Source: an uncultured Flavobacteriales bacterium (GTDB lineage Bacteria; Bacteroidota; Bacteroidia; Flavobacteriales_D; Parvicellaceae). Taken from it: a stretch of 44,659 nucleotides of DNA. Positions 12,081-17,882 of the stretch are shown here, piece after piece; position 1 is the stretch's first letter, and every line of letters starts with the position of its first letter. The notes under the pieces were generated by a model, which saw only the letters and a list, made by a program, of their open reading frames with translations, did not search any database and was not told the origin of the DNA. Position numbers and translations under genes: made by a program. The stretch covers positions 1 to 44,659 of the forward strand of contig CAJWDP010000023.1 in NCBI GenBank assembly GCA_913030835.1, in the 5' to 3' direction.

Positions 12081-12647
12081 ATGAATAAGGAAGATCTAAA
12101 ATATCTGGAGCGGATAAGAGCAGGAAGCGAAGAAAGTTTGGTAGACTTGTATAGAAAGTACAGAGATAATTTTGTGACCTGGAGCCAAACCCAATTTTCA
12201 GTTTCGGAAGAGCAAGCAAAAGATATTTTCCAAGAAACTATGATTGACTTTTATCAAAACACGGTCTCCGGTCAATTAGACCAATTGACTTGTAGTTTGA
12301 AAACATATTTGTTTCAAATTGCAAAATTTAAGCTGATCAATCTATTAAATAAAGATTCTCGAACAACTTACCTCTCAGATTTGAATTTGATAAATAGTGA
12401 AAGTCAGATATATACGATGGATAACGAATCCGATTTTAATTCCGATCAAATCAACGAGGCATTATCAAAGTTGCCAGAAGACTGTCAGAAAGTTTTAAGA
12501 CTTTATTATCATAATGAATATGACATGACCTCTATAGCCCGAGAGCTGAATTACAAAAATGCAAATACTGCGAAGTCGAAGAAGTCCTTGTGCATGCAAA
12601 AGTTAATTCGAGAGTTAGCAAAAATGTCAAAAATATTAGTGCTATGA
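12081..12647 (+). CDS. ECF-type RNA polymerase sigma factor
   Basis: The 188-residue protein has a sigma-2 region (about 20-95: LVDLYRKYRDNFVTWSQ, then AKDIFQETMIDFYQN) and a sigma-4 region (about 130-185: LSKLPEDCQKVLRLYYHNEYDMTSIA, then RELNYKNANTAKSKKSLCMQKL). This is the size and layout of an ECF sigma factor that recruits RNA polymerase to a small regulon. The stop TGA overlaps the ATG of the next gene (ATGA, 12644-12647). Translation is therefore coupled to the membrane protein that follows, the usual arrangement for a sigma factor and its anti-sigma. Composition is more AT-rich than in the neighbouring nrd genes. The regulon is unknown. Confidence 0.88.
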   Translation: MNKEDLKYLERIRAGSEESLVDLYRKYRDNFVTWSQTQFSVSEEQAKDIFQETMIDFYQNTVSGQLDQLTCSLKTYLFQIAKFKLINLLNKDSRTTYLSDLNLINSESQIYTMDNESDFNSDQINEALSKLPEDCQKVLRLYYHNEYDMTSIARELNYKNANTAKSKKSLCMQKLIRELAKMSKILVL

Positions 12648-13360
12648 TTACACAAGCGTATATTGACATATTTGAAAATTATTTGAGTGGAGAGCTCAGC
12701 CCGGATGAAAAATTGAATTTTGAATCACGGCTTGAAATGGATCAAGAATTTCGTTTTTCTTTCGAGAAATATAAAGAACTCGAATGCTCTTTAAAGAGAC
12801 ATTTTGAACGGGAATCACTCAAAAATAAACTCAGAAAGTCTGATGCTGATTCAAAAATAAAAGGTCGCAGAGGGATAAGTCGTCTTCATATAGGTCGTTT
12901 TGCTGTCATTGGATCAGCAGCGGTAATCCTATTGTCAATATTGATATACTACAATAAAAATGACGATCAGGAACAAGCTAATTTTCTGGATATGTGGCCC
13001 TATGAAGAAGGGTTAGTAGTGAAAATGGGATCATCAATCAAGTATAATCCTGCTATGAATGCCTATAGGCTGGAAAATTGGGAAGAGGCTATTCTTCTTT
13101 TTTCAGAACTAAAAACAGATACGGCGGCGTATTTCGAAGGAAACGCAAGATTTTATCTTAAAGACTATGTAAAAGCCAAAAAGATCTTTTTATCTATTGA
13201 TAATAATTCGTCCTACTATCCTGATGCACAGATTAGATTCGCGATACTGTCAATTTATTGCGGAGAGAAACAGGTGGCGAAGATTACACTTGATGATATT
13301 ATTCAGGATTCTTCAAGTGAATATCACGATTTAGCGCTCCAACTGTTGGAGATGATGTAG
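12644..13360 (+). CDS. Membrane anti-sigma-like protein with TPR-like C-terminus
   Basis: The start is ATG 12644, overlapping the sigma stop; the 18 codons upstream lie inside the sigma gene in another frame. Residues 1-80 are charged and cytoplasmic. The opening, IDIFENYLSGELSPDEKLNFESRLEMD, resembles the N-terminus of Bacteroidota anti-sigma or zf-HC2-like proteins but lacks the zinc-binding His-Cys-Cys set. A single transmembrane helix lies at about 86-104. The periplasmic part (about 110-238) is helical with tetratricopeptide-like pairs (YRLENWEEAILLFSEL, YLKDYVKAKKIFLSI). The role as a membrane-bound regulator of the sigma factor is inferred from gene order. Its last 37 bases overlap the convergent CHAT gene. 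Confidence 0.7.
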   Translation: MITQAYIDIFENYLSGELSPDEKLNFESRLEMDQEFRFSFEKYKELECSLKRHFERESLKNKLRKSDADSKIKGRRGISRLHIGRFAVIGSAAVILLSILIYYNKNDDQEQANFLDMWPYEEGLVVKMGSSIKYNPAMNAYRLENWEEAILLFSELKTDTAAYFEGNARFYLKDYVKAKKIFLSIDNNSSYYPDAQIRFAILSIYCGEKQVAKITLDDIIQDSSSEYHDLALQLLEMM

Positions 13361-15663
13361 AGAATAGGAATAAGGATAATTAGCAGGGAAAGTATCCAAG
13401 GTGATAGGGATGATTCGGAATGATTATTTCTTTTTTTAAATTTTTGATCAGCCCCCATGGCTCTATGACCAGCCCAATAAAATGGGGCAGCCAAGCTACT
13501 GTTTAATGCGTTGGAAATGTAATCGAACTGTGCGGTTCGAAGGGATGCAGAAGTGGTTGATCCGAGTGCAAGGTTCTTGTAAAACTGATTTAGTATGATG
13601 TGGGAAGATCGATCATCAAGATCCCAGATTGAATACATAATTTGAGCTACACCTTTCATGTAGAAGGCTCTTTGAAACCCATCTAATCCATCTCCTTCAT
13701 TATGGATTCCTTCTCCTGTAGAACAAGCGTTTAAAACGGCCATTTTGCAGTTCCAATCTCTTGCATAGACATCCGCTATTGAAAACTTATCTTGGTTAAA
13801 AACAAGAGAGGAGGATTCCCGTTCTGTATTGTCCCAATTCGCATGTCCGGAAAAATGTAAAATAGCACTTTTTGATTCCATGAATTTTTGCAGCGCATGT
13901 TCGTTCTGTTTATTGTGCAAACCGAATGACTCCATACTGTCGACAAATTGTTGTCCAAAAGGCAGTATGAATTGTTTCTCATATTCAGGAGCAATAACAT
14001 CAACATACCAATTACTGATTTGTGTAGGATTCGTTATAAAATCATTCACTGAGAATACCATTTTGAAATTGACATGGTGCATGAGGTAGTCAAGTTTTCT
14101 ATAGTCTTTACTTTCAATTCCTTTCTTCGAACCTAATAGAGCATTAAACGGTATTTTATGAAACCAATTTGACGGAGAGATGATTGCTTCACTGAAGGAG
14201 CTTAGGTTTACATCTTTAAATATTTTTAGGAATAAATTATACGCTGTTGTAACGTATTCCTGGTAATTTAAATCTGTTATGGCCTTTTGAAGGGATAGTA
14301 CCTCTAATTCTGATACGACTAGAGGAAGTACCTGATAGTCATATTTGGATACGAATAATAGGAATGGTTCTGGATTGGTGGAAAAGTCAATGTAGCACTG
14401 GTTTTTCGTTAGTTCGGATTGAACAGACTCAATAGAAACGATTTCTGAATAAGCTGATTTGCTCCATTTTTTTTTGTCATGATATTTTAATAATTGAAGA
14501 CATTTAAATATAGATTCAACATCATCAGAGTTTTGATGGAGATACTCAAAATACTTTTGTTTAATGCGTTCAGAAAATGGAACTAAGTCGTAAAGAGCGA
14601 AGAGTTGATTTGGATTTTGACTTCTGTATGATGCGAATGCACACTGCCATAATTTTTCAGCATCATAAAAGGCGGAGTCAAGTTTATTTTTGATCTCTGC
14701 GTTTGAATTTATTTTGTAATACTGAAGTAATGTTCTCTGATAATGTTTGGAACAACTAAGTGCATTTGTTGGGCTTATTATTTCGTCTACATTTTTGAGG
14801 TCAAAAGACGCCAATGCATCTTCAAAAAGGGATAAAGAAAAGTCAAAATTAAAACTTGTTCTGTTTTGAAATGTATACGTGTAAGCAAGTGCTTTTACAA
14901 ATTTGGATCGGGCGATTTGATAATGTTGATCATTAGAAAGTTCATGATAAATTTCAATTGCCCTGTCGTAAAGTTCGTTCGCTACCAATTGGCAAGAATC
15001 GATAAAATTATAAGAAGTGGTATTTGATTTGATCGTTGGGATTAAATCGACAAAAGAATTGGCGTATAAATGCAAGGTTTGGGCGTACATGAATGCATTA
15101 CCACTGGAATTTTCTTGAATTCTTAGACTTTTCTCATAGGTAGGAAAAATATGTTGGCGGTATTGTTTTACCAACTCAATTCCGGAATAATCTCTCAGGG
15201 TTAATTTTTTTGATTGTGCATAAACATTAAGTAACCAGCACTGTAAGGAATCTGATAGTCTGTTGTCTTCTGTTAATTTGAATAGTGAGTCGACATATAA
15301 TCTTGTTTTTGATACATCAAACTTTTCGTAAAAATAAGTACTTAAATGTCCCAATCGAATAGCTCGAAGAGCCGGATTGGCTGTGCCAATTTCCTGTCCG
15401 ATGCTGTCTGATTGATTCCAATAATATAGAGCTGTTTCAAAATCCCCTTTTACTTTCTCAATGTCTCCAAGCAGTCTGCAAGCATATTGCTGAATTTTCA
15501 AATTCGGATGATGAACAGAATTTTTTAGAGATGGTAATAAGGATGTGAATTCACCTCGTTCAAATGAAACTTGCCAATCGCTAATAATTGACTGACAGCG
15601 AACACCATTGATTACGCACAGATTAATCAATACAAAAAGTAAATATTTGAGTTGAATTGGCAT
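13324..15663 (-). CDS. TPR-CHAT caspase-like protein, secreted and membrane-anchored
   Basis: I start at ATG 15663, since the frame otherwise begins at a TTG four codons earlier. The result is 779 residues. The N-terminus is a signal peptide (KYLLFVLINLCVINGV, then RCQ). About residues 25-400 are helical and contain tetratricopeptide-like repeats. The C-terminal ~300 residues are a CHAT domain with both catalytic residues: His607 in HFSGHANWD and Cys647 in VLNACSTGEG. A hydrophobic helix near the end (LSPWILSLLIILIPILYIIS) should anchor it. This topology puts the protease-like domain in the periplasm. CHAT proteins are caspase/separase-related peptidases, several of them in defence or cell-death systems; the substrate here is unknown. 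Confidence 0.85.
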   Translation of the reverse strand: MPIQLKYLLFVLINLCVINGVRCQSIISDWQVSFERGEFTSLLPSLKNSVHHPNLKIQQYACRLLGDIEKVKGDFETALYYWNQSDSIGQEIGTANPALRAIRLGHLSTYFYEKFDVSKTRLYVDSLFKLTEDNRLSDSLQCWLLNVYAQSKKLTLRDYSGIELVKQYRQHIFPTYEKSLRIQENSSGNAFMYAQTLHLYANSFVDLIPTIKSNTTSYNFIDSCQLVANELYDRAIEIYHELSNDQHYQIARSKFVKALAYTYTFQNRTSFNFDFSLSLFEDALASFDLKNVDEIISPTNALSCSKHYQRTLLQYYKINSNAEIKNKLDSAFYDAEKLWQCAFASYRSQNPNQLFALYDLVPFSERIKQKYFEYLHQNSDDVESIFKCLQLLKYHDKKKWSKSAYSEIVSIESVQSELTKNQCYIDFSTNPEPFLLFVSKYDYQVLPLVVSELEVLSLQKAITDLNYQEYVTTAYNLFLKIFKDVNLSSFSEAIISPSNWFHKIPFNALLGSKKGIESKDYRKLDYLMHHVNFKMVFSVNDFITNPTQISNWYVDVIAPEYEKQFILPFGQQFVDSMESFGLHNKQNEHALQKFMESKSAILHFSGHANWDNTERESSSLVFNQDKFSIADVYARDWNCKMAVLNACSTGEGIHNEGDGLDGFQRAFYMKGVAQIMYSIWDLDDRSSHIILNQFYKNLALGSTTSASLRTAQFDYISNALNSSLAAPFYWAGHRAMGADQKFKKRNNHSESSLSPWILSLLIILIPILYIISNSWSAKS

Positions 15664-15869
15664 TAGTGTATTCAAAAGAATGTGTGTTCAACAAACATAG
15701 CGACTTACCTTTTCGAATTTCAATTGATTAAGATAAATATTACAAATCGTGACTACCATGGGCTTACCTTTTTATGAGTTTGTGGAATAGGGTCCAGGAA
15801 CATAATTTAAACTAAATACCATTCCATGTTGAAAAGGCAACATGATAACCAAATTTAAATGAATTGAAG

Positions 15870-17882
15870 ATGACAAATGAGGATAATTCAGAGAACTTGG
15901 AACGGCAAAAGTTCGAATTGGAGAAGCAGAAATTAGAGTTGGAGAAACAAAAATTAGCCTTTGAGAAGGAAAAAAGCAAAGAAAAGCCAACCGTATTACC
16001 CTCAAGAAAAATCACTATTGGTGATATCGTGGGATATGTTTGTTCTTTGGCACTTATTGTATCCACTTTTTTGCCTTGGATCTCCGGAAAGTCTAGAGGC
16101 GGAGGTTTTTCTTTCAGTGGTTCAATCAATGGGTTGGAAGTGGGTCACGGCTATATCATATTACTTTGCGCAATAGCGGTAGCAGTTCTAATTGCGTTAA
16201 AGAAAGTCTGGGTAGTAATTCCAGCAGGTATTGCGTTGTTGGATTCAATAGCTGTGATATCTGGAATTGGTTCATTTTCTGCCAGTGTAGGATCCGCAAG
16301 TGCAAGGGTTGGCTTTGCTATAGGACCGGTCATAGTTCTAATATCCAGTTGTTTGATATTTGTTTCAACCTTTTTTCTAAAAAAGTCTGTAGAAGGTGGT
16401 GGAGGATCGGTAAACATCCTATCATTTTTCATCAAACACAAATTCACAATTTTACTTACGATCGCTATTCTATTGATATTAACTCCTCTGATTGGGGGTG
16501 AATTTGAGCTACATAAATTTTCTAATCTACTCACAGCTCTATTTATTGGGTGTTTTATCCCTGCAGGAATACTTTTTTATCTGAAGCTTAAGAGATCATT
16601 TCTAGCGTTCATCCCATTGATTGCTTTTTATATTTTGGGTTACATATTTGATTACAACCCCAGTTTCAGCCTCGGGTTTCTTGGAGGTGAAGACAACATG
16701 TCGTCTTTTAGCTATTTTTCATCACTTGCATTTGGCTCTTTTGCGACCTGGTTTAATATTGTTTTCTATTTGGTGTTTTTTGCAATTTTGATAACCGAGC
16801 TTTTTCAAGTTAAAGAAATCAATATCATTCCGGAAGGGGTTGGAAAAGTGGTAAATTACTTTAAACCGAAACTGTTTTATTCGATTTTGTTTGTTCCGTT
16901 GGTAATTCTACTTATCTATAACGTTTCTACCAAAAATCTGGTCACCGAAGAAGATCGTAATGCCTTTTACAAATCAACCGATCAGATAATGGGGGAATGG
17001 TATTTTACAGATAACGATTCATCCTTGGTTTATCAACTTAAGATTTCAACTCCGGAATTAACGGAGGAGGATTACGAATCCGAAGAAAACTATGAAAGTA
17101 GTAGTCTACCACAATTTCTTAGAGATCCGGATTATAGTGGAGAACTTGCGAAGAAATTTTCCTTCAAACTGTCTTGCGCTGACGCAATGATTGTCGAAGA
17201 TAGGTTTGAGTATGTTGCTAGTTATGATGAATTGTTTGATTTCCCCTTTACTGTAAATGCTAACTTTTTGATTAGATCCTTGAGTAATGAAGAACTACTG
17301 ATTGAAACTGACTATGTAGGCGGTAATAAAGCTGAATTTATTTGTGTCAATAACTACGAAATCATTAATAGGCTCTGTGAGGATAAACAGAAATTGGCAA
17401 TGGAACTCCAGAAGAAGAAAGAAAAGGAAGAGTTGATGAATGGGTATAAGTCCTGCAAATGCGATGTGTCGAATGAAGGAGATTTTGAAATCACAAGCTG
17501 TGTATGGGGTATCTACAAGTTTGTAACCGAAAACTTCTATGATTCAGATGATTGTAAGTTTGGGTGTAAAAGTCAATTCATTTATAAAAACGAAGGTGAG
17601 ATTCACATTAGCGAGTTGTTTGAAAATAGCGCGAAAGGAATGGAGTTTTTAGGGTCGAAATTTGAGCAAGCTTTTAACGAAATGAGTGAGCAGGATCCAA
17701 GTTGCTTCGAGGAGACTGAATTTCAAGCTCCAATGTGGTTTGAAATGCAATTTTTGTCTGACGAATCAGGGCTTACTTTTACTACTCCATTGGATGTGCC
17801 TGCGTATTGCAGCGGACCATTCGGGGAGTCTAGTGTTTTTATACCGTACAATGAGCTTATTTCAATGATAAATCTTCAATAG
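15870..17882 (+). CDS. Polytopic membrane protein with DUF3298/RsiV-like C-terminus
   Basis: The best start is ATG 15870; the frame also has a TTG two codons earlier. The 670-residue protein begins with a short coiled coil of 7-residue repeats (FELEKQK, LELEKQK, LAFEKEK; about 10-36). About ten hydrophobic segments follow between residues 50 and 355. The rest is hydrophilic, with Cys pairs (CKCD, CKFGC). Its end (SGLTFTTPLDVPAYCSGP, then VFIPYNELISMI) strongly resembles the end of DUF3298 domains, which occur in the anti-sigma RsiV and in lipoproteins. I do not recognise the whole protein. It lies next to the sigma/CHAT genes, but cotranscription with them is not possible. Confidence 0.65.
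   Translation: MTNEDNSENLERQKFELEKQKLELEKQKLAFEKEKSKEKPTVLPSRKITIGDIVGYVCSLALIVSTFLPWISGKSRGGGFSFSGSINGLEVGHGYIILLCAIAVAVLIALKKVWVVIPAGIALLDSIAVISGIGSFSASVGSASARVGFAIGPVIVLISSCLIFVSTFFLKKSVEGGGGSVNILSFFIKHKFTILLTIAILLILTPLIGGEFELHKFSNLLTALFIGCFIPAGILFYLKLKRSFLAFIPLIAFYILGYIFDYNPSFSLGFLGGEDNMSSFSYFSSLAFGSFATWFNIVFYLVFFAILITELFQVKEINIIPEGVGKVVNYFKPKLFYSILFVPLVILLIYNVSTKNLVTEEDRNAFYKSTDQIMGEWYFTDNDSSLVYQLKISTPELTEEDYESEENYESSSLPQFLRDPDYSGELAKKFSFKLSCADAMIVEDRFEYVASYDELFDFPFTVNANFLIRSLSNEELLIETDYVGGNKAEFICVNNYEIINRLCEDKQKLAMELQKKKEKEELMNGYKSCKCDVSNEGDFEITSCVWGIYKFVTENFYDSDDCKFGCKSQFIYKNEGEIHISELFENSAKGMEFLGSKFEQAFNEMSEQDPSCFEETEFQAPMWFEMQFLSDESGLTFTTPLDVPAYCSGPFGESSVFIPYNELISMINLQ

Follow-up and report, generated by a model that had tools for sequence, protein, structure and literature searches.

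The genome assembly of an uncultured Flavobacteriales bacterium (GCA_913030835.1) holds, on contig CAJWDP010000023.1, the stretch of 44,659 nt analysed here and referred to as the window, in which four AT-rich genes sit between nrdA and an ABC exporter. Three of these genes are the subject of this study: an extracytoplasmic function (ECF) sigma factor (SIG), a predicted anti-sigma factor (ASF) and a TPR-CHAT protease (CHAT), which together are predicted to form a proteolytic switch at the cell envelope. The GC content of the four genes is 0.337-0.370, against 0.421 for the window and 0.407 and 0.444 for the nrd genes.

SIG (12081..12647, plus strand, 188 aa) matches TIGR02937 over residues 20-178 with 62.7 bits, above the cut-off of 42.9, and Pfam sigma r2 and r4_2 matches are also present, both below their cut-offs. 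Its stop codon overlaps the start of ASF (12644..13360, plus strand, 238 aa from ATG) in an ATGA. ASF is predicted to have its N-terminus inside, a single transmembrane segment by hydropathy (residues ~83-101; 12890..12946, plus strand), with basic residues before it and acidic residues after it, and periplasmic TPRs (residues 132-237; 13037..13354, plus strand). A model built on a 39-row alignment, A4, which comprises 38 of 51 candidate ASFs and the window member, reached a mean predicted local distance difference test score (pLDDT) of 89.4 and places helices at 4-14, 20-32 and 34-71, the transmembrane helix at 84-115, a linker at 116-131 and TPR helices at 132-237. The TPR part resembles the YbgF TPR 2xev_A (VIA Z 14.6, root-mean-square deviation (rmsd) 1.7, 108 residues aligned), and since the Foldseek and VIA lists for the ASF model are filled by TPRs, they are barely a test of its N-terminal domain. 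The NCBIfam anti-sigma models match A4 members at E≤0.01, NF052375 in 18 of 39 (best 2.8e-10) and LIMLP_03685 in 11 of 39.

Convergent to this pair lies CHAT (13324..15675, minus strand), of 783 aa from a TTG start or from an ATG four codons further; residues are numbered from the TTG. It matches PF12770 with 113 bits (cut-off 24), the sole PF12770 match found in the genome, and its hydropathy profile, with which the models concur, has a signal-like N-terminal segment and a hydrophobic C-terminal anchor (residues ~757-775; 13351..13407, minus strand). The catalytic His611 (607 from the ATG; 13843..13845, minus strand) and Cys651 (647 from the ATG; 13723..13725, minus strand) are invariant in all 38 rows of the alignment A5, drawn from 37 of 43 candidate anchored CHATs and the window member. 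The CHAT model on these 38 rows (mean pLDDT 80.6; helix at 757-782) retrieves with Foldseek first the chains of Csx29/TPR-CHAT (8eex_B, E 4.9e-15), then DdvA (E 2.3e-10) and separases. Using VIA, it aligns to Csx29 7y9x_B with Z 27.4 and an rmsd of 22 over 539 residues, which indicates that the domains fit separately, and to the separase protease domain 5fc2_B with Z 23.8 and an rmsd of 3.3 over 290 residues. A profile comparison of ASF with CHAT gave a TPR match alone, at a probability of 61. The 3' ends of ASF and CHAT overlap by 37 bases (13324-13360), and small overlaps are found in other convergent pairs too. These findings bear out the preliminary description of the locus as an ECF sigma gene coupled by ATGA to a membrane protein with TPR-like repeats, beside a convergent, secreted and C-terminally anchored CHAT protein with intact His607 and Cys647, in a block more AT-rich than the nrd genes.

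Co-location of SIG, ASF and CHAT

Across many genera, SIG, ASF and CHAT form a conserved module. Within a set of 60 related genomes, the window's own included, a search at E≤0.001 detected relatives of CHAT in 14 and of ASF in 11, and both same-genus genomes were without either; this absence, together with the low GC content, suggests that the block may be accessory. The three genes lie close together in 8 of 20 fetched stretches (L-numbers denote such stretches and G-numbers genomes: L037, L040, L041, L042, L043, L044, L045, L049), and the convergent layout of the window recurs in L037 and L049.

A wider search ran an ASF profile over 345 genomes of the phylum. Nine of the ten ASFs behind the profile came from loci with a linked CHAT, and CHAT linkage in the newly searched genomes was not built into it; up to eight ASF candidates and up to two CHAT candidates were scored per genome. 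Around each of the 40 top-scoring ASF places beyond the window's own genome, spread over 28 genomes, a stretch with flanks of roughly 5-13 kb was taken, several of these stretches being drawn longer toward a listed CHAT match. SIG lies directly upstream of ASF in 39 of the 40 (the exception is L140), and CHAT is present in the stretch for 34 (not in L128, L130, L132, L133, L140 or L156), within 5.6 kb in 33 cases and at 10.3 kb in L147. Separate occurrence of the genes in most relatives had been named in the preliminary description as evidence against its reading; this is not what is seen from the ASF side, where CHAT is in the stretch at these 34 of 40 places. In the reverse direction, the 20 highest-ranking CHAT places lacking a listed ASF partner were fetched, and at the threshold applied none of these CHATs has a hydrophobic segment at its C-terminus. 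A SIG-ASF pair is still found in six of these 20 stretches (L164, L165, L171, L172, L174, L177), adjoining CHAT in three; in L163 and L169, SIG sits at the cut edge. From the forward and reverse counts, anchored CHATs occur nearly always with ASF, and unanchored ones in a minority of cases.

A pooled set, which includes stretches fetched for CHAT, holds 151 distinct ASFs (a transmembrane segment being a condition of the ASF call), 142 of which have SIG upstream. CHAT is present in the stretch for 99 of these 142, and is C-anchored in 86. Sixty further stretches, chosen for family spread and not by rank order, with flanks of ~5 kb, contained CHAT in 37 cases. The counts for the 40 best ASF places and for the pooled set rule out a chance neighbourhood. 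Moreover, the 84 ASF-CHAT pairs comprise 28 with CHAT in tandem downstream, 26 convergent, 24 divergent and 6 in tandem upstream, and because gene order varies in this way, frozen synteny alone is insufficient to explain the co-location. Hence, of the four families whose co-occurrence had been proposed, SIG, ASF and CHAT do stand together and the fourth gene is not part of the set; nor do the two convergent genes appear linked only by position, given the conserved co-location and the co-variation described below.

Variants of the arrangement were also observed. In G053, the CHAT gene is broken by an in-frame TAA (L038:5256-7637), and a SIG-ASF pair is found on a different contig, where it converges with a Fic-domain gene (L039:7886-9186); the module of this genome is possibly decaying. 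In L143 (6848-10896), ASF is followed in tandem by a CHAT fragment of 250 aa that has the anchor and is convergent with an 855-aa protein with a weak CHAT match, possibly a split protease. Two anchored CHAT genes stand in tandem beside one SIG-ASF pair in L157 (10306-15747) and L233 (6836-12841), and in L051 (9174-15097) and L054 (1080-6844) the CHAT genes, also in tandem, lack the C-terminal hydrophobic segment and have no SIG-ASF in the fetched stretch. Several paralogous ASF modules per genome are present in G283, G141, G145, G368, G215, G121 and G374.

The linker dyad and the active-site region of CHAT

In A4, the short linker between the transmembrane segment and the TPRs of ASF carries Arg or Met in 39 of 39 rows (28 Arg, 11 Met), mostly followed by a small residue. 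The corresponding dyad in the window, Met128-Gly129 (13025..13030, plus strand), is the predicted cleavage site. A wider automated alignment of 142 ASFs has Arg in 86, Met in 29, Lys in 7 and another residue or a gap in 20 at this position.

The identity of the linker residue is matched by a residue in the partner protease. Over 32 ASF-CHAT pairs, CHAT 577 is the column with the largest acidity difference between Arg and Met partners, with Glu in 22 of 23 Arg partners and Phe, Leu, Ala or Thr in 9 of 9 Met partners. In the enlarged set of 84 pairs, CHAT 577 is Glu in 48, Ser in 2 and Arg in 1 of the 51 pairs with an Arg linker, and Thr in 15, Leu in 5, Ala in 3, Ser in 2, Phe in 1 and a gap in 2 of the 28 with a Met linker, with Glu in none; five linkers are neither Arg nor Met. 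In keeping with its Met linker, the window CHAT has Phe577 (13945..13947, minus strand). An all-against-all scan of 80 pairs (effective number 56.6), covering 228 ASF by 815 CHAT columns, ranked ASF 128-CHAT 577 first of 185,820 column pairs, with an average-product-corrected (APC) z of 8.1 and the next pair at 6.0. Also among the top 15, ASF 128 pairs with CHAT 649 (two residues before the catalytic Cys), 688 and 571.

Position 649, Asn in the window (13729..13731, minus strand), sets apart a third class. In L241, L251 and L252, the three rows with a Lys linker among 92, 577 is hydrophobic and 649 is Asp, a position held by Ser, Thr, Asn, Ala, Gly or Gln in the other 89 rows; L145, the sister row of the Lys rows, has Arg, Glu and Ser at the linker, 577 and 649. 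When the rows were checked by hand, a basic P1 residue agreed with a pocket acid at 577 or 649 in 89 of 92 rows, Asp649 having been counted as a pocket acid after the Lys rows were seen, and with 577 alone in 86 of 92. In this check, 15 rows were set by eye (eight as Arg/Glu, seven by motif register), and L232, L143, L171, L177 and three contig-edge rows were left out. Without the hand edits, 99 pairs give 59 with Arg (Glu in 51, gap in 5, Ser in 2, Arg in 1), 24 with Met (Glu in none) and 16 others. Residues such as 577 and 649 are presumed, by analogy with clan CD proteases, to form the S1 pocket, and the charge match at the active-site region fits such a pocket.

A predicted switch and its alternatives

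Taken together, these observations make it likely that SIG, ASF and CHAT constitute a self-contained switch, in which CHAT acts as the site-1 protease that cuts ASF and so starts the release of the sigma factor. ASF would reside in the inner membrane, with N-terminal helices that retain the ECF sigma factor on the cytoplasmic side and TPRs that extend into the periplasm. Next to it, the TPR-CHAT protein would be held after export by its C-terminal anchor. Activation would come from an envelope signal, with the TPR parts as its probable readers, and the caspase-like domain of CHAT would then cleave ASF in its short linker immediately beyond the membrane, on the C-terminal side of Met128 (of Arg in most relatives and of Lys in a few). 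The remaining ASF stump would presumably be removed by general site-2 and cytoplasmic proteolysis, freeing the sigma factor. The sequences show four things in its favour: which parts are present, that they stay together across genomes, that the dyad is conserved, and that the residues of the dyad and of the active-site region change in step. The topology beyond hydropathy, sigma binding, cleavage, the site-2 step, the signal and the regulon are what we infer. The release of the sigma factor by periplasmic proteolysis, as it had been envisaged for the locus, is thus well supported for three genes by co-location and by the co-variation of the ASF linker with CHAT, and is not carried over to the fourth.

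A number of results weigh against this proposal. As many as 43 of the 142 SIG-linked ASFs have no CHAT in the fetched stretch, and the linker residue is Arg, Met or Lys in 122 of the 142 ASFs of the wider automated alignment. Among the pairs, L152 and L220 (Arg without an aligned Glu) and L219 (Leu with Asp) are misfits, and L171 and L177 have Glu577 with a linker that shows no clear Arg or Met. The CHAT model is weak at residues 653-662, and the placement of residue 577 in the pocket is a prediction from sequence. The window ASF itself matches the anti-sigma models weakly and below their cut-offs (NF052375 at E 0.15, LIMLP_03685 at E 0.015). SIG-ASF co-variation reaches z 6.7 without pointing to the ASF N-terminal domain, which spans 72 of the 234 columns and supplies 20 of the 50 highest pairs; the leading column, 123, lies in the linker. 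No promoter signal shared between SIG and the separately transcribed CHAT genes was detected over 59 loci (mean percentile 0.538, p 0.49).

The same holds for several results on descent, which is a real background in the co-variation. The independent switches are few, 4-5 on the trees and 2-3 of them on well-supported branches. In tests on independent pairs, 577 changed in the same direction in 1.7 of 3, never in the opposite one, and showed no difference in 1.3 (median p 0.5); after the hand edits it changed in the same direction in 1.8 of 2 (median p 0.5), and such tests cannot reach significance because the pairs are too few. Mutual information (MI) with the Arg/Met class is 0.50 for a SIG column and 0.73 for another ASF column, against 0.747 for CHAT 577. 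When the class was predicted from rows at most 30% identical (base rate 0.73), the best CHAT columns were 649 (0.906), 688 (0.889) and 577 (0.886), the best SIG column reached 0.863 and the best other ASF column 0.926. Further, ten less conserved CHAT columns differ at all of the five sister contrasts considered below.

The alternative that survives best, and which is nevertheless unlikely, is that CHAT is mainly an output of the system: an exported executioner or processing protease made under the active sigma factor, which cuts other envelope proteins, with another protease controlling ASF. That CHAT is often separately transcribed (50 of the 84 pairs lie on opposite strands) would suit this role, as would the exported neighbours, which could be output or substrates. 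A secreted PKD/DUF7619/DUF7849 protein stands beside CHAT in 15 loci (L129, L134-L138, L141, L144, L146, L147, L154, L155, L219, L226, L228; five checked by Pfam) and is a candidate sensor, substrate or target. Subtilases form a cluster beside CHAT in 7 loci, and of the two members checked one carries a type IX sorting tail. Two members each were likewise checked of the clusters of a second PKD protein, found in 6 loci, and of an OmpA protein, found in 4. In ten related loci (L129, L134-L138, L144, L146, L147, L155) a small protein lies beside CHAT, the one checked (L135:1479-1949) being a retropepsin-like aspartyl protease, and one further cluster in 10 loci is without an assigned identity. 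However, the commonest CHAT-side neighbour cluster is SIG, at 77 loci with the next largest at 15, and it is the only other one present in most loci. Moreover, an output-only role gives no reason to expect the ASF linker residue to follow the CHAT pocket, as it does.

CHAT could also bind ASF without cutting it, as a co-sensor or cap, and the co-variation of dyad and pocket would then reflect a docking contact. DdvA, a solved transmembrane anti-sigma factor with a CHAT domain in the same chain, lends some colour to this idea, as do the TPRs in both ASF and CHAT, but matching charges in the active-site region suit an S1 pocket, and the invariance of His and Cys in the 38 A5 rows argues for catalysis; we regard it as very unlikely. 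Least probable of all, and only barely credible, is that co-variation and linkage are by-products of the shared descent of an operon-like module without direct CHAT-ASF contact: the MI background from phylogeny is high, one large Met clade consists of close relatives and the independent-pairs test is without power, but the label switches 4-5 times across the trees, in most cases together with the fitting state at 577, most conserved CHAT columns stay fixed at such switches, and the Lys class gains Asp649. On a 74-row tree, the Arg/Met label changes 4 times and the Glu577 state 6 times; on a 92-row tree, the basic/non-basic state changes 5 times and the acid 8 times. At five sister contrasts, hand-picked from the 92-row tree and one of them gapped at 577, 60 of the 81 CHAT columns conserved in the Arg class change at none and only 577 changes at ≥4, the Arg rows being those with an aligned Glu577, so that the conservation of 577 is 1.0 by construction (48 of 51 without the filter).

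The recurrent neighbours that could be identified are envelope proteins or exported ones, which suits a role of the three-gene switch at the envelope or surface better than phage defence, without this being proof. The defence role that had been suggested found no evidence: PADLOC, run on the four proteins, gave weak matches alone, of SIG to CasR at E 0.0065 and of CHAT to a TPR model at E 0.005, and the assignment was rejected.

The fourth gene of the block (15864..17882, plus strand) encodes a polytopic protein of 672 aa that gave no Pfam or NCBIfam match at E≤1 and has no recognised family; its C-terminal 150 residues gave no match to a solved structure below E 0.09. PF11738 (DUF3298), at E≤1, had no match in the genome, while two of 14 controls did give one. 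Relatives of the protein occur in 3 of the 60 genomes, its own included, and the only other case near CHAT is that of G053, where the relative (L038:2198-3760) lies ~1.5 kb from the CHAT gene, on its 3' side. The DUF3298-like end attributed to this protein, and with it the proposed RsiV-like sensor, therefore finds no footing, and a circuit of four genes is rejected, the fourth being rare and not linked.

Comparison with known systems

In the RseA/DegS and RsiW systems, an ECF sigma factor becomes free when its membrane anti-sigma factor is proteolysed. The predicted site-1 protease of the present module differs in being a caspase-like Cys protease that is encoded with the sigma/anti-sigma pair. 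The likeness to RsiV lies in the idea of a periplasmic sensor beside an ECF sigma factor, and the difference is that DUF3298 was not detected here. In the literature searched, from which subscription journals were mostly absent, no description of a SIG-ASF-CHAT module was found.

DdvA (PDB 8rot, 8rw5) is titled a transmembrane anti-sigma factor, and its CHAT domain keeps the THG and AACEGG motifs. It has its place in the biology of Myxococcus DdvS and CRISPR control. By the titles and molecule names of these entries, CHAT and anti-sigma factor share one chain in DdvA, whereas in the window they are separate proteins.

The protease and inhibitor of Craspase are cytosolic and, unlike them, the window CHAT has a signal-like segment and an anchor, ASF has a transmembrane segment, and hydropathy places the dyad outside the membrane. 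Craspase is switched by guide RNA and Cas7-11, as a type III-E system. Csx29 is the best structural match of the window CHAT (8eex_B, 7y9x_B), and CHAT 577 aligns to Gln in Sb-Csx29, at a place where the alignment is of low confidence; Csx30 is absent from the solved chains matching the ASF profile among the 60 matches listed. Csx29 is described as cutting Csx30, an inhibitor of CASP-sigma, in type III-E CRISPR, in a report that also names RseA/DegS and RsiW (PMC10028731). The Csx29/Csx30/CASP-sigma arm is like the window module in its components: a TPR-CHAT protease, an ECF sigma inhibitor and a sigma factor. Another report gives the Csx30 sites as M|K, L|D and A|S; these lack conservation and are recognised mainly by position (PMC11106740), in contrast to the conserved Arg/Met dyad of ASF.

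The module may thus be regarded as a non-CRISPR counterpart of Craspase logic (Cas7-11 was not searched for in the genome), with a predicted cleavage site and a specificity code, both derived from sequence. More tentatively, and with somewhat more doubt than confidence, such modules could represent widespread stand-alone periplasmic caspase-like proteases whose S1 pockets co-evolve with anti-sigma linkers as lock and key, with insulated copies per cell, and which are a possible source of the Csx29-Csx30-CASP-sigma arm and of DdvA. The predicted code would pair Arg with Glu577, Met with a hydrophobic or small residue and Lys with Asp649. G283, G357 and G349 each hold Arg-type and Met-type modules, and lock-and-key pairing would allow several such insulated copies to run in one cell. 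If true, the site-1 proteases by which ECF sigma factors are activated would gain caspase-like members encoded with their substrate, and the module would offer a natural comparison for the acquisition of a sigma arm by type III-E CRISPR.

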